From NCBI RefSeq assembly GCF_005116655.2, contig NZ_CP050698.1, positions 1,318,001-1,382,000 on the forward strand: 64,000 bases of DNA. Direction: 5' to 3'. The stretch is from Desulfosediminicola flagellatus (GTDB taxonomy: Bacteria; Desulfobacterota; Desulfobulbia; Desulfobulbales; Desulfocapsaceae). The position numbers were made by a program, and so were the translations under genes. Under the pieces are notes generated by a model. The model ran no database searches and had not been told where the DNA came from. It saw nothing but the letters and a program-made list of their open reading frames with translations. Shown here piece after piece: positions 7,659 through 56,880 of this stretch (the first letter of the stretch is position 1; each line of letters starts with the position of its first letter).

Positions 7659-8633
7659 TCAGCGAAGCGCCGAACCAAACTGTTTTTTCTCCTGAGCCAT
7701 TCGTTTAAGCTCAACATTTCCTGGAATTACTGTTTCAGGATCCAGTTTGAAATTCAGGGTTCTGCTTCTGCCTCTGTACTTTATAGAGTTAAGAATAAGT
7801 TTCATGGTCTCACGTCTGGCAAGATGTTTATTGTCCGAACGGATAACCCACCATTTCGAACTGCTGGTATGTGTCTTCTGTAGCAGAACCCGTTTTTTTT
7901 CAGTGAACTCATCCCACAGGTCCTGTGCCTGAAGGTCAACTTCGCTCAGTTTCCACTGGCGAAGCGGGTCATTTCTGCGGCGTTCAAACCGTTTAGCCTG
8001 CTCGTCCTTTGATACCGAAAAATAGAGCTTAAGCAGGACTGTTTTTCCTGCATCAAGAATGAAATTTTCTTCGTAACTGTTAACTTTCTTCAAGAACCGT
8101 TTGTATTGATCAGAGCTGCAAAAGCCCATAACAGGTTCAACCATGGCCCTGTTGTACCAACTTCGATCAAACAGTACGATCTCACCGGCATGCGGGAACT
8201 GTTCGATGTACCGCTTGATATGCAATTCAGTACGTTGAATCTCGTTAGGCTTTCCCAAAGCTACAACACGATAACGCTTTTCATTCATATAGCGGGTGAC
8301 ACGCCGGATTGTCCCCCCTTTACCAGAAGCATCACGCCCATCGAAAAGTATAATCATCTTTTTCCCGGTACTTTCAAGATGCATCTGCATTTTAATGAGT
8401 TCTGCCTGATACGGTTTAAGCTCCTCTGCGTAATAATATTTCAGCAGGGCTGCCTCAACGATTTCCTCTTTATGACGATCCGAGAGAACACTGGTGATTG
8501 CACGGCTGATATCAGAAGGCCGCCTGGTACTGGGAGTGCGGTCGAGGTCCTTGACGAGGTCACGGATTATTGCGGTCGTTCCACGGGAAGGATCGAATAG
8601 ATTACCCGATTGATTACTGCTCTTTTTGGGCAT
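7659..8633 (-). CDS. ppk2: Polyphosphate kinase 2 family protein (upstream copy)
   Basis: Second PPK2 paralogue, 324 residues from the chosen ATG. Walker A GRDASGKGGT is near residues 99-108, and the FDRSWYNRAMVEP segment follows. The start at 8633 (MPKKSSNQ) is preferred over an in-frame ATG at 8660 because GGAG lies 8 nt upstream of 8633, while 8660 has no ribosome-binding site. The N-terminal extension of about 75 residues is longer than in the downstream copy. A sigma70-like promoter lies at 8702-8731. Tandem PPK2 genes suggest complementary substrate preferences or directions; that is inference. Confidence 0.92.
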   Translation of the reverse strand: MPKKSSNQSGNLFDPSRGTTAIIRDLVKDLDRTPSTRRPSDISRAITSVLSDRHKEEIVEAALLKYYYAEELKPYQAELIKMQMHLESTGKKMIILFDGRDASGKGGTIRRVTRYMNEKRYRVVALGKPNEIQRTELHIKRYIEQFPHAGEIVLFDRSWYNRAMVEPVMGFCSSDQYKRFLKKVNSYEENFILDAGKTVLLKLYFSVSKDEQAKRFERRRNDPLRQWKLSEVDLQAQDLWDEFTEKKRVLLQKTHTSSSKWWVIRSDNKHLARRETMKLILNSIKYRGRSRTLNFKLDPETVIPGNVELKRMAQEKKQFGSALR

Positions 8634-8701
8634 GGAAAAAACTCCAGTGTTAGAAAACATTGGGGGGAATGTTACGGTTTGATTAAGGCTATTATCTGAA
8701 T

Positions 8702-8731
8702 ATTATAGCAAAATATGTGCGATCTATGCAA
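8702..8731 (-). promoter_or_regulatory. Sigma70-like promoter for the ppk2 pair
   Basis: Read on the minus strand: -35 TTGCAT (8726-8731), 18-bp spacer, -10 TATAAT (8702-8707). The start of transcription would fall near 8695, about 60 nt before the preferred ppk2 start at 8633. Confidence 0.55.
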
Positions 8732-8734
8732 ACG

Positions 8735-9478
8735 TCAATTAAGTTTTTTTCCAAGACTGTACATCATTTGGTAGATAGGCGGTAAGTGGTGATGGTTCAG
8801 TGCCTCAATAACTGCGTTGACGTTGTACTCAATTCTGTAATGCGTAACATTGATTGTATTTCTGTTAAAAGACAATACTGCACAGCTTACTCGTGGGTCT
8901 CCGTCAAACATTCGCCCTGCAGAACCCGGGTTAATAAAATGGCTGGATAGCGCTTGAAAATGATATGGAGTGTGGGAGTGGCCTGTCACTACTATTCTGT
9001 AGGGGAACTCAGAAGCCAGTTCCTTGAAACGATTCTCAGGGCTTATGTCAAAGAGGAACTCATGAGGTGCTGCGGGGCTTCCGTGAAAAACACCTAGAAG
9101 GTCACTTTTACCTGCAGGTGGTGCTGTGGTTGTGAACAGGGGTACTTCACGAGAAATCGGCAGGTTCATCAGGTAGTGACTGCAATCCTTGTCAAGAATG
9201 TCTGCAGTGTGTGAATACATGATACGTTTATCTGGTTTTGACGGCTTCTTGAATGTCTTCCCTTTAAGCAGCTTGATAACCTTTTTGTCAGTATTCCCAA
9301 GGATTGACAGTGCTTTTTTATCCATTAACCAATGTATAACTTCATTTGGAAATGGCGCATAGACAACAGAGTCACCGCAATTGATGATGTAATCAAAGTG
9401 AGTTCCTTTAAAGGTGTGCTCAATTGCTTCAAGTGCTGGAAAGTTCCCATGTATGTCTGCAAGTAGAAGTATTTTCAT
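8735..9478 (-). CDS. Calcineurin-like metallophosphoesterase, YfcE/MJ0936 type
   Basis: A 247-residue predicted cytoplasmic metal-dependent phosphoesterase. The metal-binding motifs appear in order: DIHGN (residues 8-12), GDSV (about 36-39), GNTDK (about 62-66), GHSHTPYH (about 166-173) and NPGS. The natural substrate is unknown; relatives hydrolyse phosphodiesters or nucleotides. An insert of about 40 residues rich in prolines (TTAPPAGKSD region) interrupts the core. It lies just upstream of the ppk2 pair on the same strand, but the ppk2 genes have their own likely promoter, so a shared role in phosphate metabolism is only suggestive. Confidence 0.85.
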   Translation of the reverse strand: MKILLLADIHGNFPALEAIEHTFKGTHFDYIINCGDSVVYAPFPNEVIHWLMDKKALSILGNTDKKVIKLLKGKTFKKPSKPDKRIMYSHTADILDKDCSHYLMNLPISREVPLFTTTAPPAGKSDLLGVFHGSPAAPHEFLFDISPENRFKELASEFPYRIVVTGHSHTPYHFQALSSHFINPGSAGRMFDGDPRVSCAVLSFNRNTINVTHYRIEYNVNAVIEALNHHHLPPIYQMMYSLGKKLN

Positions 9479-10239
9479 TGTATTTATATAACTGATTCGC
9501 GATCAATTTGTCGATCAATGTATTGTAGTGTACTGCAATTTGCGTGGTAGCTATAAATACTTTTGCCGGTATCGAAGATTTACATGCTATTAGTGATAGG
9601 TTGATGATGAAGGTGAACATGCGTAATGTGAACCTGGTGGTTCTCTTTTAGTCCGTATTTTTCATTATATTATCCGATTACCACTAAAGCTCAGCTGCAT
9701 CACGTGAGGGGTGAGGAGAGAGGGGTGAGGAGTAACTGCACAAAGCGCAGATGCATAAATCAACTATTTGAAAACACTATTTATACAGAAAATCAATTGT
9801 CGACTATCTACTCCTCACGCCTAGCGCCCCATCTTAGTAAACTGAGGATTAGTGGAAATCATATTATATTATTTCCAGATATTTTTTAATGGTTCGATAT
9901 TATAGCTTTAATATGATGATCTCCAATGTCAGAGTGTAATTATGTTTGAAATCGAAATACTATTGATGAGTATTTCTGGTTAAGGACTGAGTTGATGAAA
10001 TGTTGTATCAATTCGTTCAGATTGAGCTATTTTAGAGTAGCAAATACAGACGAGTAAATGATAGGTTGATAGAGATAGACATTAGAATAGCAGGGCAATG
10101 GCACGGTTGGATGGTGTTAAATCCTAAGAGGATGACGGACAGGAATCGAGCCTTAAAGGATATACAGTGAACCCGGTGTCGGCCCAATGGCAGCATGAAC
10201 AACGATATTAAACAGATTTAATAGGACATAAGAAATATT
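9479..10239. other. 761-bp gene-free divergent intergenic region
   Basis: This separates the minus-strand phosphoesterase from plus-strand argJ. It contains the heptamer array described at 9704-9825 and otherwise AT-rich sequence. A 61-codon open frame across the repeat (9704-9889) has no ribosome-binding site and is not credible. No RNA gene or convincing promoter was recognised. Confidence 0.6.
9704..9825. repeat. Inverted heptamer array of GTGAGGG type
   Basis: Four tandem heptamers (GTGAGGG, GTGAGGA, GAGAGGG, GTGAGGA) run from 9704 to 9731. A shorter inverted array lies at 9809-9825, so GTGAGGAGTA (9725-9734) pairs perfectly with TACTCCTCAC (9809-9818) across a 74-nt spacer. The architecture is the same as at 6458 but with a different heptamer. 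Confidence 0.55.
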
Positions 10240-48081: not shown

Positions 48082-49872
48082 ATGCGAATACTTGTCCTGG
48101 AAGATTCGAAATTACTCAAGGAACTCTTCAAGGCGCGTCTGGAGCGGGAAGGGCACGAAGTAACCGTTGTCGATAATGGACATCAGGGGTTTATCCTGGC
48201 TACATCCTATCCATATGATGTGGTCGTCAGTGATGTTCAGATGCCGCATTGGGATGGATTTAAGTTCATTGATGCAATGCAGGTTGTTTGTCCAAGAATT
48301 CCGATAATCATTGTCACATCACTGAGTGTTGATCCTGAGATCATGGCTAAAGTGGCCCGTTTCACTAATGTCATTGAATTGCTGGCAAAGCCTCTGGATT
48401 TTAAAAAATTCTTTTCATTGCTAGAAAATCTCACAGTTCAGACTCATGATAATGTAAATAAAAAGGCTCGTATAGTCTGTACACTTGGGCCGGCAAGTAA
48501 CAATCGTGAAGTTATAGGAAAAATGGTTCTTGCAGGTATGGATGTTGCTCGTCTGAATTTTTCTCATGGGACCTATAAAGAACACGAAGCAACATTGAAT
48601 GCTGTAAGAGATGCAGAGAGGGAGTGGGGGAAACCTATTGCAGTATTACAGGATCTATGTGGTCCGAAAATACGCACCGGAACGATGAAAGACGGAGAGG
48701 TCGAACTTGAAGAGGGAAGACAGATAATTATTCAGGCAGAACCAATTGAAGGGAATTTTGAGAGGATTTCCTGCGCAATTCCTCAAATATTACAAGATCT
48801 ACGAAAAGGGGATCCTGTACTTCTCGATGACGGCCTGCTTGAATTACGCGTGGCAGAGGAAGGCGAATGTGATGTTGTATGTGATGTTATTGTTGGTGGA
48901 ATTCTCAAATCGAATAAAGGCATGAATCTTCCTGCCACAACATTATCGCTTCCATCTGTGACAGAAAAAGATTGGAGAGATCTCGACTGGGCGCTTGACC
49001 ATTCTGTCGATTATGTTGCTTTATCTTTTGTGCGCAGTGCCGAAGAAGTTATCGCGGTAAAGAAGTATATCAGCAATGCCGGGAAGCAGGATTTGCGTCT
49101 GGTTGCAAAAATTGAAAAGCCTGAAGCGGTAAAGAATATACACGAAATTATAGAAGTGTCAGATGCTATCATGATAGCTCGCGGTGACATGGGTGTTGAA
49201 TTACCCGCAGCACGAGTGCCTCGGATTCAGCAGGAAATCATCCGACTCTGCTGGCGAATGAATACACCTGTAATTACGGCAACGCAAATGCTCGATTCAA
49301 TGACTACACACTCAAGGCCAACTCGGGCTGAAGTTACAGATGTGAGTATGGCAATACGTGAAGGAACTGATGCGGTTATGCTCTCTCAGGAGACTGCAAC
49401 AGGTGTGGACCCGGTAAATGTAATCCGAACCATGGCCTCAATAATTTGGGAGGAAGAACAATATACTGATCTTAGTGGTGAACAGTACAAACAACTCAAA
49501 GATGACGCGGCTGAAAACCCGGTTATTACCGCTGTTGCGGGTCTGTCTGATACGGCAGCTGTTATATTGCTTGATCTCGAAGGAAATCTTTTTCCTTTAG
49601 TTTCAAAATGGAACAGGAAAATCCCATCACTATTGGTAACTGGTTCAGAGTTGATCGCAAGACGAGCAAGTCTTTACTACAATATAGTTCCCTTGATAAT
49701 CAGAGAGGACTATTGTCACGAAGAAATCATCCAGAAAGCGATGAGCATTGCTCTGGAGTGGGGATATATTAAGGAAGGAGATGCAATTGCTGTGGTGGAA
49801 GGAATGCGTGAGACACGCAACAACCTTCTACAGATCAGCGCTTTGCAGATTCTTAAAGTTCCTTTGTCATGA
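48082..49872 (+). CDS. pyk: Receiver domain-pyruvate kinase fusion
   Basis: A 596-residue protein. Residues 1-120 form a complete response-regulator receiver: acidic Glu7-Asp8, phosphoacceptor Asp51 in VVVSDVQMP, Thr79 and Lys103 in LAKPLD. From about residue 128 it is a full pyruvate kinase: RIVCTLGPAS, LNFSHGTYKEH, LCGPKIRTG, the catalytic VAKIEKPEAV and IMIARGDMGVE, and the C-terminal allosteric domain. Normal pyruvate kinases (about 470 residues) lack a receiver. The joined frame is continuous with no sign of error. It implies phosphorylation control of the PEP to pyruvate step. Confidence 0.93.
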   Translation: MRILVLEDSKLLKELFKARLEREGHEVTVVDNGHQGFILATSYPYDVVVSDVQMPHWDGFKFIDAMQVVCPRIPIIIVTSLSVDPEIMAKVARFTNVIELLAKPLDFKKFFSLLENLTVQTHDNVNKKARIVCTLGPASNNREVIGKMVLAGMDVARLNFSHGTYKEHEATLNAVRDAEREWGKPIAVLQDLCGPKIRTGTMKDGEVELEEGRQIIIQAEPIEGNFERISCAIPQILQDLRKGDPVLLDDGLLELRVAEEGECDVVCDVIVGGILKSNKGMNLPATTLSLPSVTEKDWRDLDWALDHSVDYVALSFVRSAEEVIAVKKYISNAGKQDLRLVAKIEKPEAVKNIHEIIEVSDAIMIARGDMGVELPAARVPRIQQEIIRLCWRMNTPVITATQMLDSMTTHSRPTRAEVTDVSMAIREGTDAVMLSQETATGVDPVNVIRTMASIIWEEEQYTDLSGEQYKQLKDDAAENPVITAVAGLSDTAAVILLDLEGNLFPLVSKWNRKIPSLLVTGSELIARRASLYYNIVPLIIREDYCHEEIIQKAMSIALEWGYIKEGDAIAVVEGMRETRNNLLQISALQILKVPLS

Positions 49873-50068: not shown

Positions 50069-50758
50069 ATGAAACTAAAGAAACAGATTATATATTGGCT
50101 AGATGAAAAACGTGACATGATAGTTGTCAGTTTGATTATATTTGTCGTGTTGATCTCTGTTGTATTAGGGATGAGAATGCAGCAAAATTACACCGTCCAG
50201 CAACGATTGGAGGAAGAGGCAAAAAAACCGAAAAAGGTTAAATTGGCAAAAGACAACGCTGAAAAAAAGGCTGGGCAGGGCTCTGCTAAGCCTGCACCTT
50301 CTGCGTCATTTTTTCTTAAACCTTCACCTGATGAAGTACTTTCGTTAATTCAGGAAATGGGAGAAGGAGAACTGCCTCCTGATAATCAAAAATATACCGG
50401 TTTACGCGTGATGTGGCCGGCATATTTTTTTCAGATTGTGAGTCAGCAGGCAGGCAATGCTACTATATTACTTGATGTTTCTGTAGATGGATTTGGAGTA
50501 ATGATTCAGACTGATGTGGATCTGGCCAAATTTCCAGATATACTCTCAATAGAGCGCGGTAAGAAAATATGGGTAGCTGGTGAACTACTTGGCGTTGATG
50601 GAAAAGGTACCGGCACTATCATTATGACTGCCGAGGAGGTTCGGTTTGCAGAAAATCTGGAAGATGCTATTAAAACACACGTTGGACCGCGAGATAACTC
50701 CACACAAGTAAAATCTCCTGATGGTCAGACTACGAAGGAAGAGGCAGAGAAACAATAA
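50069..50758 (+). CDS. Membrane-anchored protein of unknown function
   Basis: A 229-residue protein with one N-terminal transmembrane helix (about 18-36), a charged Lys/Glu/Ala linker (about 45-80), then a soluble domain of about 120 residues with beta-strand character (KIWVAGELLGVDGKGTGTII), which could be OB-fold-like, and a charged tail. The end overlaps the convergent histidine kinase gene by 29 bp. No function is assigned. Confidence 0.72.
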   Translation: MKLKKQIIYWLDEKRDMIVVSLIIFVVLISVVLGMRMQQNYTVQQRLEEEAKKPKKVKLAKDNAEKKAGQGSAKPAPSASFFLKPSPDEVLSLIQEMGEGELPPDNQKYTGLRVMWPAYFFQIVSQQAGNATILLDVSVDGFGVMIQTDVDLAKFPDILSIERGKKIWVAGELLGVDGKGTGTIIMTAEEVRFAENLEDAIKTHVGPRDNSTQVKSPDGQTTKEEAEKQ

Positions 50759-52424
50759 AACGCGCTCCTCCACTGGTACTTGAATCAATAGTAATGGAAC
50801 CTCCATGTTCCTCTATGATCTGCAGCACGATTGCAAGTCCCAGCCCCGTGCCGTCCGCACGTGAGGTAAAGAATGGTTCGAATATTTTCTCTTTATTTTC
50901 CTCGGTCACTCCAGGGCCGTTATCGCTGACGGAAATTTTGATGGTGTCACCGGCTTCACCCCCCTTTACTTCTTCGGCTTCCACCTCAATTATCTCACGT
51001 CCCGGCGGGCAGAAAGCCATGCCGTTCTGGATGAGATGATTGAGCACTGTGTGGATTTGTTTGGGATCAGCCCATATGTCTATTGCATCATCAAATAATA
51101 TTTCAAGCCTCGTTGAGAGTGGCCACGTCGGGTCAGCCCTGCATACCTGAATGACCTCATCGAGGATACTTTTGAGCGAGAACCATTCCCTGTTTGCAGC
51201 TTCCGGACGTGAGAACTTTAAAAAATCCGCTATGGTATCAATCATCCTGTTAGATTCGCGAAGAATAATGTCTGCCAATTCATAATTGAACAAATTCTCA
51301 CTGCCTTCCTGGGAAAACTCATTAACCAGCACCTGTGCTGAACCGGATATTGCCGTTAAGGGGTTCCTGAAATCATGGGCTATTCCTGCGCTCATCATGC
51401 CGATAGCTGCAAGCTTTTCGGCCTGGCGCATTTGTCTTTCGAGTTGTTCTATTTCACTAATATCACGAAGTGTGATTATTTTATGTTGATCAAGAGAGTC
51501 TGGCTCAGTCTCCCCTAATTGCTGGAGATCAACATGGGAATATCCGAGCCGGATAGTCTTCCCATCATACCGCGTGAAATCAGCGGACTGTCGCATCCTG
51601 GGAGCTGAGAGGTTGAGGTTGGGGAAATAATCAATCAGGGTTGTGCCAACAAGAGAGGCGGCTGGAAACCCGGTAATATCACCTGTTGCATTGTTTGCTG
51701 AGGTAATGGCCCCTGACTGATCTATGGTGATTATGCCTGTCGCAATGTTATCAAAGATCTGTTTATACAGAACTGCAAGCCTGTCGTAATTACGAATGGA
51801 GTCAGACAGTGCATCTTCAGTGGTCTGAACACGCAGACTGAATAGGGCACTCAACAGGGCGGCCAGGAAAAATGTGAGCCCCTGGACTGCAAAATGGTTC
51901 AGATTAACCATTGGATCGTCTGCACCCTGGTAGCCCATAACTAGCAGATATTCAGGAAAGGAACCAAACACCTCCAGAAGAAGGATTCCTCCATACAAGA
52001 GTGTCGACGATGCTGCTGCAACCAAACCGCCTTTTCGTGGCAGGATAAGTCCACCTGCGATAATCGGGAAAAAGTAAATTGAAGTAAATATCGAGTGCGA
52101 AATTCCGGTGTAGTAGACCAGCAGGGTAGCAAAAAACGTATCAATGAGGTTCTGGATAAAACCGAACTTTCGCAGATTCGCTTTCGATACAAACGCGTAA
52201 AATGCTGAAGCGATAGTTGTGAAATAGATTGCAACAAGCAGCAGGGTCATCAACTCGCTTGGCATGAGTATAACGTCAAGACTGGCCCCGCCAAACACAA
52301 CACTTAACACAAACAGCAGGGTGTAGAGGACGATCCGAAGCAGCATCATCCAGAGTATTTGAGTTTTCAGTATCTGGTTGACGGTAGGTGTTCTGTTGCG
52401 TTTAAAAAATGATTTTAAGTTCAT
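50730..52424 (-). CDS. pilS: PilS-like sensor histidine kinase
   Basis: A 564-residue kinase. Six hydrophobic segments fill the first 200 residues, a PAS domain follows (about 218-325), then HisKA with His350 in GIAHDFRNPLTAISG, and a HATPase domain (LNHLIQNGM, DNGPGV, GTGLGLAI). The domain order matches PilS, which controls type IV pilin with PilR. The partner gene starts 6 nt upstream of this ATG on the same strand. No pilus genes lie in the window, so its target is open. Confidence 0.88.
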   Translation of the reverse strand: MNLKSFFKRNRTPTVNQILKTQILWMMLLRIVLYTLLFVLSVVFGGASLDVILMPSELMTLLLVAIYFTTIASAFYAFVSKANLRKFGFIQNLIDTFFATLLVYYTGISHSIFTSIYFFPIIAGGLILPRKGGLVAAASSTLLYGGILLLEVFGSFPEYLLVMGYQGADDPMVNLNHFAVQGLTFFLAALLSALFSLRVQTTEDALSDSIRNYDRLAVLYKQIFDNIATGIITIDQSGAITSANNATGDITGFPAASLVGTTLIDYFPNLNLSAPRMRQSADFTRYDGKTIRLGYSHVDLQQLGETEPDSLDQHKIITLRDISEIEQLERQMRQAEKLAAIGMMSAGIAHDFRNPLTAISGSAQVLVNEFSQEGSENLFNYELADIILRESNRMIDTIADFLKFSRPEAANREWFSLKSILDEVIQVCRADPTWPLSTRLEILFDDAIDIWADPKQIHTVLNHLIQNGMAFCPPGREIIEVEAEEVKGGEAGDTIKISVSDNGPGVTEENKEKIFEPFFTSRADGTGLGLAIVLQIIEEHGGSITIDSSTSGGARFIVSLPLPS

Positions 52425-52430
52425 GGGTTA

Positions 52431-53819
52431 TTATTGAATTCCGTATTTTTTTACCTTGTAACGGAATGAGCGAAAGCTGATTCTAAGCAGGTCAGCAGCT
52501 CGCATTTTTGAATTATCTGTCTTCTCAAGTGCGTGTCGGATAAGTTGCTTCTCAAGATTGGTGATAACTTTTTCAAGCCCCAGTTCATAGAGTTCCTTCT
52601 CACTGGTGACTGCCTGGAACGTTCCGGTGCTTTTTATAGAATGTGATTCTTCCTCTTTATCATTATTTGACTGAGAGGAGGGCAGGGTCAGGTTTTCTGG
52701 GAGAATGATGTTGGAACTTTCAAGTGCAACTCCACGTTCAATAATGTTTTCTAGTTCTCTGACATTACCGGGAAAGTTGTAATTCATGAGAACCTGAAGA
52801 GCATAACTGGAAATCTCGCGAACCTCTTTATCGAGTAGCCGGGAGTATTTTTTCAGGAAGTGGCGAACAAGCAGGGGCACATCGCTTTTTCTTTCGCGAA
52901 GCGGGGGCACGCGTAAAGGGACAACAGCAAGCCTGTAAAAAAGATCTTCACGAAAACGTCCCGCCTTAATTTCATCTTCAAGAATACGATTGGTTGCTGC
53001 AATAATACGTACATTGATCTGTTGAATCTGATTGCCGCCAACGGGTTTGATTTCGCGTTCCTGAAGAACGCGAAGAAGTTTTGTCTGAATGATTGGTGTG
53101 AGTTCACCTATTTCATCCAGGAATGCTGTGCCGTTATCTGCGACTTGAAATAGCCCTTGCTTATCGCTTATTGCCCCGGTGAAAGAGCCTTTTACATGAC
53201 CGAAAAGTTCACTCTCCATGAGTTCTTCAGGGATAGCGCTACAGGTGATCGGGATGAAAGGATTGTCGGCAACGTGGCTGTGTTTGTGAATAGCCTGGGC
53301 TACGAGTTCTTTCCCGGTTCCTGATTCACCATAGATCAGCACGTTTGCAGGAGTAGGGGCAACACGCCTGATCATGTCAAAAATTTTGATCATTTCACGA
53401 CTCTGACCGATAATTCCCGGGAATGTATCGGTTTTGCGAGTGTGGTCAGATTCACCGCCGCCTTTTCGTATTGCGGATTTTATAACCGATTTTATTTCAT
53501 CAACATTGAATGGTTTAGATATATAATCAAATGCACCATGCTTCATTGCCTGCACCGCATCATTTGGTGAGGCAAAAGCGGTGATCATAATTACCGGTAA
53601 ATCAGGTGAATGTTCTTTAATTGATTCAAGAAGTTCAAGTCCATCCATACCCGGCATCCGGATATCAGTGATCACCAGATCACATTTGGAATTTTGCAGG
53701 TAATCAAGTCCCTCTTCTCCATTGGGGGCAGTAGTTACCTGATGTCCCTCTTTGGTGAGAAGTATCTTGAGAAAATCCCGCATACTTCGTTCATCATCGA
53801 CAACAAGAATCTGAAACAT
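52431..53819 (-). CDS. pilR: PilR/NtrC-type sigma54-dependent response regulator
   Basis: A 462-residue regulator. Receiver with Asp8, Asp9 and phosphoacceptor Asp52, an AAA+ domain with Walker A GESGTGKE (164-171) and the sigma54-contact loop GSFTGA (211-216, Ser in place of the usual Ala), then a Fis-type helix-turn-helix ending RSFRYKVKKYG. ATG 53819 (MFQILVVDDE) fits the family start; the frame is open to ATG 53867. Pairs with the PilS-like kinase 6 nt downstream. Confidence 0.9.
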   Translation of the reverse strand: MFQILVVDDERSMRDFLKILLTKEGHQVTTAPNGEEGLDYLQNSKCDLVITDIRMPGMDGLELLESIKEHSPDLPVIMITAFASPNDAVQAMKHGAFDYISKPFNVDEIKSVIKSAIRKGGGESDHTRKTDTFPGIIGQSREMIKIFDMIRRVAPTPANVLIYGESGTGKELVAQAIHKHSHVADNPFIPITCSAIPEELMESELFGHVKGSFTGAISDKQGLFQVADNGTAFLDEIGELTPIIQTKLLRVLQEREIKPVGGNQIQQINVRIIAATNRILEDEIKAGRFREDLFYRLAVVPLRVPPLRERKSDVPLLVRHFLKKYSRLLDKEVREISSYALQVLMNYNFPGNVRELENIIERGVALESSNIILPENLTLPSSQSNNDKEEESHSIKSTGTFQAVTSEKELYELGLEKVITNLEKQLIRHALEKTDNSKMRAADLLRISFRSFRYKVKKYGIQ

Positions 53820-53971
53820 AGCGTTCGTAGAGTAATATTGAACTCCTGTCTGGTGATTATCTGCCATGGAGGAGTTAGTGTATGAATGTGGAAATTATTA
53901 TGGGGTGAGAGCACTACACCCATTTAACTGTATAATACGATTTGGGAATAGACAAGGAGATAAGCGGTAAA

Positions 53972-55608: not shown

Positions 55609-56880
55609 ATGAGTTTCTCGGAAGAATATGAGAAAGTTCTTAAAATAGGCAGACCACCCAACATCACCAGACTGTTTCCTAACTCGAAAGCATTGCTCGT
55701 TAGTGGCAAGGTTATTGATCGGGCTATGCTTGCTAAAGGAAAGGCGATGACCATAGCTGCTAATGGCCGCAGTCATCTGGTAATTCGAGGTGCCTTAAAG
55801 GCCGCTCAGCGTGCTGATGCTGCAATTATTATTGAAATTGCAAAATCTGAAGCCACCTACTGCCCGGTCAATTTTTATAATATTGCAAGACAGGTTGATG
55901 CTCTATGCAATGAAATGGAAATTACCGTTCCGGTGGCTATCCATGCTGACCATTATGGGATCAAGACTGAGGCGGATATTCCTCATGCAAAAGTTGAAAT
56001 CCCGTCTATGTTTGAAGCAGGCATTACTTCAATAGCTGTTGATGCCTCGCATATGCCAGACGATAAAAATCTGTTGGCAAATATCGAACTCAACACATTG
56101 ATTCCCGCCTGGGCAGGTCTGGAAACCGAGGTTGGTGAAATAAAAGGTGAGCAGGGGCTATCTACTGTTGATGATGCTTCTTTTCTTATTAAGGGGCTTA
56201 ATGCATACGGTATATCTGCAGACTGGATTGCTCTGAACAATGGCACCACCCATGGCCTGGAGTCGAGCGGCCAGGGTATTCAGGTCGATTTAACCGCAGA
56301 GATTCATAAGGCTCTTGAGCCGTATCGGGTTTCCGGAGCCCAGCATGGAACTTCTGGAAACAGCTCTGTAAAATTGCGGGCAATTGCCGAGCAGACTAAA
56401 ACCACCAAGGCTAATGTAGCGACTGCGCTACAGATGGTTGGCTGGGGTCTTGAGGTAAATGATGACGGCAATGCCATTGTAGATGAAGCGGGCAACTTCA
56501 AAAAAATCTCTTCTGAAGGCGTAACCGATGAGCTCTGGCAGAAGATGACCAATTATGCAGCGGAGCAGGGGTGGGGCGGTGGAGATTACAAGAAATTGAA
56601 TCTACCATTTGAAAACCAGATATTATCTCAGGAAAAGCCGATACGGGATCGAATGACCAAGCGTGTCGAAGATTTTATTTACTCGATCCTGACGAATGTT
56701 TTTAACGCCGATGGAACAGCGACCATTGCTAAGGATTTACTGCTTGAGGCTGGAAGTTACGATCTTGGCCCGAAGGCGGAGCCTATAGAGGATTTGGCTG
56801 AATGGAGCAAAGAACTTATTATCAAACGTGCGCAGACACTTGATGTAGATAAAGGTCCTGAAGGCGATTTTGATGACTAA
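55609..56880 (+). CDS. fba: Class II fructose-bisphosphate aldolase family protein
   Basis: A 423-residue zinc-dependent aldolase-fold protein, cleaving or making ketose bisphosphates. Motifs include VAIHADHYG (zinc histidine), SIAVDASHMP, ETEVGEIKGEQG and GAQHGTSGNS. It is longer than standard FbaA (about 360) with a C-terminal extension rich in acidic residues, so the exact substrate is less certain. Good GGAGG site before the ATG. A terminator follows at 57017. Confidence 0.88.
   Translation: MSFSEEYEKVLKIGRPPNITRLFPNSKALLVSGKVIDRAMLAKGKAMTIAANGRSHLVIRGALKAAQRADAAIIIEIAKSEATYCPVNFYNIARQVDALCNEMEITVPVAIHADHYGIKTEADIPHAKVEIPSMFEAGITSIAVDASHMPDDKNLLANIELNTLIPAWAGLETEVGEIKGEQGLSTVDDASFLIKGLNAYGISADWIALNNGTTHGLESSGQGIQVDLTAEIHKALEPYRVSGAQHGTSGNSSVKLRAIAEQTKTTKANVATALQMVGWGLEVNDDGNAIVDEAGNFKKISSEGVTDELWQKMTNYAAEQGWGGGDYKKLNLPFENQILSQEKPIRDRMTKRVEDFIYSILTNVFNADGTATIAKDLLLEAGSYDLGPKAEPIEDLAEWSKELIIKRAQTLDVDKGPEGDFDD

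Follow-up and report, generated by a model that had tools for sequence, protein, structure and literature searches.

A pyruvate kinase joined to a response-regulator receiver domain in Desulfobulbales, and a possible route from two-component signalling to the PEP-pyruvate step

Pyruvate kinase (PK) is a textbook case of metabolite-driven allostery, and a gene of Desulfosediminicola flagellatus in which a response-regulator receiver domain precedes the enzyme in the same chain raises the question of what sets the activity of such a PK. The gene lies within a stretch of 64,000 nucleotides, here called the window. We propose, with a probability of about 0.6, that the encoded protein (REC-PK) is an accessory PK isozyme under the control of a two-component signal, with the phosphorylated receiver taking over the role of the effector pocket; in our comparisons of sequences, the combination of a fused receiver and an altered sugar-phosphate pocket suggests that outside signals, and not metabolites, control the PK step.

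A preliminary description of the locus had proposed a continuous frame that joins a receiver with all its key residues to a PK with its catalytic motifs, and each of these elements was recovered. Positions 48082-49872 (+) form one uninterrupted frame from ATG to TGA, which encodes 596 aa; Pfam places Response_reg at residues 3-112 (60.6 bits, cut-off 30.2), PK at residues 127-447 (361 bits, cut-off 30) and PK_C at residues 490-585 (49.8 bits, cut-off 28), and the NCBIfam pyruvate kinase model TIGR01064 scores 487.8 bits versus a cut-off of 306.4. Glu7, Asp8, Asp51, Thr79 and Lys103 of the receiver are present, as are R157, N159, S161, D191, R198, K343, E345, D369 and T401 of the PK part. The central proposal of that description, a PK fused to a receiver that can be phosphorylated, is well supported, with an architecture that recurs across an order and an acceptor Asp in 34 of 35 distinct sequences. 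The features of the gene are given below, with the basis of each assignment in brackets; published papers are cited by their PMC identifiers, and the statements taken from them refer to excerpts of these papers.

48082..49872, + strand: REC-pyruvate kinase fusion gene, 596 aa (frame, Pfam, NCBIfam, orthologues)
48082..48435, + strand: receiver domain, residues 1-118, with the Pfam match at 3-112 (Pfam; acceptor-site counts)
48232..48234, + strand: Asp51 codon, the presumed phospho-acceptor (D in 34/35 distinct sequences, N in one)
48436..48459, + strand: short linker, residues 119-126 (translation)
48460..49422, + strand: PK barrel and B-domain lid, residues 127-447, catalytic residues intact (Pfam, alignment)
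49549..49836, + strand: PK C-terminal alpha/beta domain, residues 490-585 (Pfam)
49573..49590, + strand: altered effector phosphate loop, residues 498-503, D-L-E-G-N-L versus S/T-x-S/T-G-x-S/T (alignment; loop role from PMC10338316)

Linker residues 119-126 of the window protein contain no Met able to restart a separate PK and, since only 8-14 residues lie between the receiver and the first PK barrel strand, the two domains are joined almost directly. The PK fold is present in an AlphaFold2 model of REC-PK (23 rows; pLDDT 86.0, pTM 0.85). Of the 870 PDB matches that Foldseek gave for this model at E up to 0.001, the 50 listed were all PKs, at 31-38% identity, and no structure among these 50 joined a receiver to a PK; the corresponding comparison with viral proteins was uninformative, returning receivers, histidine kinases and weak matches.

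With regard to the possibility of an assembly artefact, the preliminary description had called for a search for REC and PK architectures and their taxonomic range, and had named separate receiver and kinase genes in related genomes as the refuting case. The architecture does recur, and that case fails. Among 58 genomes comprising the source genome and its relatives, a full-length match was found in 10 including the source genome, the nine others being 55-67% identical. In a set of 257 genomes of the order searched at E below 1e-150, 35 genomes from four families (9 from f1, 11 from f12, 10 from f3 and 5 from f6) and 19 of 69 genera gave a match, and 34 of these 35 matches include the receiver; 32 are full length, one of them (G615, locus L050) with an internal stop after residue 351, while two are limited to residues 1-492 and 1-482, respectively, and a third to residues 243-594. 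When named genomes were scanned with the receiver sequence, 80 loci were obtained, of which the best 26 (L031-L056) carry a PK behind the receiver in the same frame; three of these 26 are cut by a contig end, one (L050) has the internal stop and five come from named strains, and the other 54 loci are receivers without a joined PK. Holders of the fusion include Desulfobulbus rhabdoformis DSM 8777, a Desulforhopalus, Ca. Desulfobia pelagia and three Desulfogranum species (Desulfogranum mediterraneum DSM 13871, D. marinum DSM 2058 and D. japonicum DSM 18378). The order is taken to be Desulfobulbales from named loci of that lineage whose sequences are identical to those in the set, although some records are annotated no further than Deltaproteobacteria, Proteobacteria or uncultured bacterium. 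For three loci (L053, L054 and L055) NCBI gives Myxococcota or Pseudomonadota as the lineage, and the same genes occur in genomes of the window's order. An artefact or a gene in decay could claim two observations: G002, of the window's own genus, holds only a remnant (L164 6073-6453 (-)) whose first eleven receiver residues are joined directly to a late part of the PK, and the interrupted frame of L050 (8001-9788 (+)) represents either a pseudogene or a MAG error. Against this account stand the 26 named loci, including those from named strains, and the conservation of both the catalytic and the acceptor sites; for the family as a whole the account is refuted and has next to no chance of being correct.

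The gene is nevertheless patchily held. At the threshold used, no REC-PK match was obtained in 222 of the 257 genomes of the order, including three of the window's genus, and the gene is thus not essential to the group; the internal deletion in the G002 remnant means that loss by deletion has occurred. Among the matches listed for 395 genomes of the phylum, best first, full-length matches were confined to the source genome and four others of the order, and no independent REC-PK fusion was found elsewhere in the phylum. Eight PKs from outside the order with frames of at least 587 aa, also among the matches listed, were considered as candidates and set aside, as they gave no receiver match and their extensions contained no receiver by eye; the N-terminal extensions of these PKs (L124, L129 and L170-L175) look like chance GC-rich frame, and a profile scan of L170 from the PK start onward found PK only. 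In a plasmid search, 340 records matched and 15 covered at least 80% of the query; the one record examined, an Azospirillum plasmid match to residues 6-575, encodes a 534-aa PK of the ordinary kind, lacking a receiver, and was likewise rejected. The receiver part alone matched 3277 plasmid records, all under 60% identity.

Phylogenetic comparison favours a common history for the holders of the fusion. In a maximum-likelihood tree with a midpoint root, built from the PK domains of 31 fusions together with 47 ordinary PKs of the same phylum, a single branch separates the fusion PKs from all the others, supported at 100/100 and with a stem length of 1.64 changes per column; the 47 ordinary PKs were the best-ranked in the searches plus the two other PKs of the window genome, and hence are a non-random set with some long branches. 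One origin of the fusion is the simplest reading of this tree. Inside the fusion clade, families mostly cohere and only f3 occurs in two places, with G609, G610 and G619 grouping with an f1 member and the remaining f3 sequences lying beside f6; descent with losses is likely, although the split of f3 may reflect transfer. Pairwise identities of receiver and PK among the fusions (means of 52% and 66%) correlate at r = 0.83 over 465 pairs, as expected if both parts travel as one gene.

The 60 fusion loci were reduced by their first 300 residues to 35 distinct sequences, leaving out five places from the order search without a locus; D51, T/S79 and K103 are each present in 34 of these 35, and an acidic residue occupies position 7 and position 8 in all 35. 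The acceptor site has been kept even though receivers of the 31 full-length fusions share a mean pairwise identity of only 52% (465 pairs). One element of many receivers, an aromatic switch residue three positions before Lys103, which is common and not defining, departs from this pattern: all 53 control receivers have Y or F at this position, whereas only 7 of 35 fusions have F and the other 28 have one of V, I, L, T and S, Leu being the residue in the window. Because this switch is mostly missing in the fusions, signalling would not be the textbook one; the receiver is, by its residues, built for phosphorylation, albeit not quite in the textbook manner. The exception among the 35 is locus L047 (Desulfobulbus sp. 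Pc512_bin139; 8001-9788 (+)), in which N51, V79 and E103 are found, together with E8, so that D51, T79 and K103 are all gone, yet the fusion, the PK site and the receiver-specific residues are kept and the receiver still scores 61.7 bits. Phosphorylation is therefore dispensable in L047, whose REC-PK, to judge from these substitutions, is a natural phospho-dead version.

The receivers of the fusions also share a patch that is rare or absent in control receivers. The controls were 53 of the 54 loci without a PK from the receiver scan (L098, too short, was omitted); they had been chosen by a pattern that fixes their first residues, so their E7 and D8 carry no meaning. Compared with these controls, the fusions have Q35 in 35/35 (controls 2), F37 in 34/35 (4), W57 in 35/35 (0), K61 in 35/35 (0), F62 in 35/35 (5) and A65 in 35/35 (6). 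The pattern WDGFKF had helped to select L031-L056, but for 30 of the 35 distinct sequences the whole-length search was an additional or the sole source. G36, present in all 35 fusions and in 20 of 53 controls, was not counted as receiver-specific. In the AlphaFold2 model, residues 33-42 and 59-69 form helices 2 and 3.

In the PK part, the catalytic site and the effector site have fared differently. The nine catalytic positions, R157 to T401 as listed above, whose roles we take to be those of the corresponding residues in studied PKs, are invariant in all 31 full-length fusions, and the PK part is, on this showing, built to be active. In the PK of S. pneumoniae, Thr 407, 409 and 412, in the C-domain loop before helix 2, hold one effector phosphate (PMC10338316). 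We matched these residues to positions 498, 500 and 503 of REC-PK by their spacing, by their place before model helix 504-510 and by the S. aureus alignment, the S. pneumoniae sequence itself not being part of the alignment. A complete S/T triad at these positions is found in 41 of the 47 ordinary PKs, among them the two further PKs of the window genome, with two S/T in one (L011) and one in five; of the 31 fusions, none has the complete triad, 27 have no S/T and four have one. Position 498 is Asp in all 31 fusions, and position 503 is L, I, F or M. An Asp in this pocket would be expected to repel sugar phosphates. As six ordinary PKs also have an incomplete triad, loss of the loop is not peculiar to the fusion, and since effector-site residues are known to vary among PKs (PMC10338316), an altered site is by itself no proof that every effector has been lost.

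These observations can be combined into a mechanism for the isozyme. Asp51 would receive its phosphate either from a histidine kinase or from a small donor molecule, for example acetyl phosphate. The receiver, which a short linker connects to strand 1 of the A-domain barrel, would probably pack on the PK through the helix 2-3 patch, for which we propose Q35, F37, W57, K61, F62 and A65 as the lineage-specific packing residues, and the phosphorylated receiver would shift the PK, in cis, between inactive and active states. The unphosphorylated receiver may keep the PK off, and phosphorylation may free it; this direction follows the analogy with CheB and is a guess only slightly better than a coin toss. 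CheB activity is gated by aspartyl phosphate. As the effector pocket of the C-domain is altered, the phospho-receiver would likely have taken over the response to sugar phosphates or AMP. We infer that phosphorylation may control PK activity in cis, that the receiver-PK interface probably lies at the helix 2-3 patch, and that REC-PK has probably lost effector binding. A more specific version, to which we give somewhat less than even odds, holds that the isozyme has swapped sugar-phosphate/AMP feed-forward for aspartyl phosphate, with the pocket dismantled and the receiver installed so that the PEP-pyruvate step would follow an environmental signal rather than the levels of metabolites.

A two-component input implies a kinase, and the surroundings of the gene were compared for candidates; the neighbours scanned were selected, mostly longer genes on the same strand. 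No constant neighbour of REC-PK was found across the loci compared, and no dedicated histidine kinase is linked to REC-PK in the window genome. The window gene comes after murA, as it does in L035. A PilS-like histidine kinase and an NtrC-like sigma-54 regulator are encoded near REC-PK on the opposite strand of the window (50730-53867 (-)); they were rejected as a dedicated partner, as L031 is the only one of the 26 named loci, several of which end close by, to retain them next to the gene, and this kinase, the only one near the gene in the window, has its own regulator. In L056 (67-9782 (+)), one strand carries in turn a hybrid kinase, a REC-HD regulator, two further hybrid kinases and REC-PK, with 36 bp between the last hybrid histidine kinase and the start of REC-PK; the hybrid kinases of L056 are a candidate source of the cognate kinase. 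No histidine kinase lies directly upstream in the other loci among the neighbours scanned. In genomes G083 and G256 of another family (L162 4525-7998 (-) and L163 3947-7489 (-)), the only matched PK gene has, 21 bp upstream, a separate gene for a hybrid histidine kinase with a PAS domain; this pairing was set aside as a general arrangement, as five other genomes of that family had no such kinase match (E up to 1e-60) on the PK contig.

Some neighbours have a link to pyruvate metabolism. REC-PK of L050 is preceded by succinyl-CoA-ligase-like genes, a carboxyltransferase, a biotin carrier and an oxaloacetate-decarboxylase beta subunit and is followed by genes of the pyruvate:ferredoxin-oxidoreductase type; subunits of the latter type precede REC-PK in L031, and in G025 REC-PK starts 11 bp after the gene of a RACo-like Fe-S protein. 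Five other scanned neighbours fit no link to signalling or pyruvate: a rhomboid and a ferric reductase (L046), CorA (L040), an epimerase (L044) and valyl-tRNA synthetase (L048). About 5.7 kb downstream of the window gene lies a gene of the class II fructose-bisphosphate aldolase family (55609-56880 (+); Pfam 86.7 bits), and an ORF of the same cluster occurs in the same order in L031. Separately, the source genome has seven PPDK_N (PF01326) matches at six places.

Apart from control of catalysis by phosphorylation, three other roles for the receiver deserve consideration. It may be a docking or assembly module that brings the enzyme to a pole, to a membrane kinase or to a partner enzyme, or that changes its oligomeric state, with no phospho-switching of catalysis. 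Such a role would explain why Q35, W57, K61 and F62 are kept in all 35 sequences, and hence also in L047 without its acceptor site, and why the aromatic switch residue is not conserved; a pure dock, however, would not need D51, T/S79 and K103, each of which persists in 34 of 35 sequences at 52% mean receiver identity, and we consider this role unlikely. Information may instead flow in reverse, with the PK part acting as a sensor of PEP, ADP or pyruvate that sets gain or loss of phosphate at the receiver, making the protein a metabolic sensor or a phosphate sink of a phosphorelay. A spare PK would be free for such signalling, and a second PK match was indeed present in all 14 REC-PK genomes checked (of 35), although that of G017 reaches only 204 bits in a 354-aa frame; the position of REC-PK in L056, where it closes a run that includes three hybrid kinases, fits as well. 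Since a mere sensor would be expected to tolerate some loss at its catalytic positions, the invariance of all nine in 31/31 fusions speaks against reverse flow, which we regard as improbable.

The third alternative concerns the donor rather than the direction of control: acetyl phosphate could be the sole donor, so that the enzyme would read the acetyl-phosphate pool with no dedicated kinase. The changing neighbours of the gene, mostly with no kinase found beside it, are what this would predict, but hybrid kinases are linked to REC-PK in L056, and the kinases of orphan response regulators are usually unlinked in any case; we give this alternative a low probability. Control of catalysis by a phosphorylated receiver, in an accessory isozyme, remains the reading we prefer.

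Physiological context for such control is provided by Desulfocapsa sulfexigens, for which three plain pyruvate kinase genes (UWK_00304, 00318 and 00709) have been described, belonging to pathways that probably operate in the reverse direction (PMC3739170). This numbering agrees with the places of the three PKs in G025, at 357.7, 377.7 and 820.9 kb; if G025 is D. sulfexigens, the first of the three PK genes would be REC-PK, and the excerpt of PMC3739170 carries no remark on a REC fusion of that first gene. A bacterium that runs such pathways in reverse must have its PK off during gluconeogenesis, and in Bacillus subtilis failure to keep PK off under these conditions is costly (PMC11834443). If our reading is true, a central carbon branch point would be under direct two-component control, faster than transcription, and the natural isozyme would show how evolution can swap an allosteric input, exchanging a ligand pocket for a phospho-receiver. 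As DSM strains carry REC-PK, the proposal is directly testable, with L047, in which the acceptor site has been lost naturally, as a built-in control.

The preliminary description had also held that no system of this kind was described. For PK this stands within the literature searched, as no report of a receiver-PK fusion was found among the listed titles and abstract starts of the open-licence PMC literature, and the Galperin 2006/2010 output-domain reviews, outside that listing, may contain a mention; it does not stand for metabolic enzymes in general, on which receivers have already been described (PMC5847659). Fusions of receivers to standard metabolic enzymes form a known class whose members are narrowly distributed, including archaeal REC-KaiC, REC-glycosyltransferase and, in metagenomic samples, REC-pyruvate phosphate dikinase (PMC5847659). 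REC-PK resembles these metabolic-enzyme-output regulators (PMC5847659) in that a receiver and a standard metabolic enzyme share one chain within a narrow taxonomic group, and differs from them in that the enzyme is a pyruvate kinase, the holders are bacteria from four families of one order, and the enzyme's allosteric site has changed. Compared with other bacterial PKs (TIGR01064; S. aureus 3t05 and G. stearothermophilus 2e28), the whole catalytic core is shared, as are all nine catalytic positions, with 38% identity to 3t05 by Foldseek, whereas the N-terminal receiver and the altered effector phosphate loop set REC-PK apart, and the extra C-terminal domain of the S. aureus and G. stearothermophilus enzymes (PMC4448766) is missing. 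An added domain is also a feature of the PK of B. subtilis, where an extra C-terminal domain holds the enzyme down and is needed during gluconeogenesis (PMC11834443); that domain mediates metabolite effects (PMC11834443), while the added domain of REC-PK is an N-terminal receiver. Direct contact between a receiver and the enzyme that it controls is likewise seen in Xanthomonas, in which the receiver of RpfC binds the enzyme RpfF (PMC9864630), although RpfC and RpfF are two proteins and REC-PK is one chain. Finally, REC-PK shares with CheB, a receiver-methylesterase, the placement of a receiver ahead of an enzyme; CheB serves chemotaxis, whereas the enzyme of REC-PK belongs to central metabolism.
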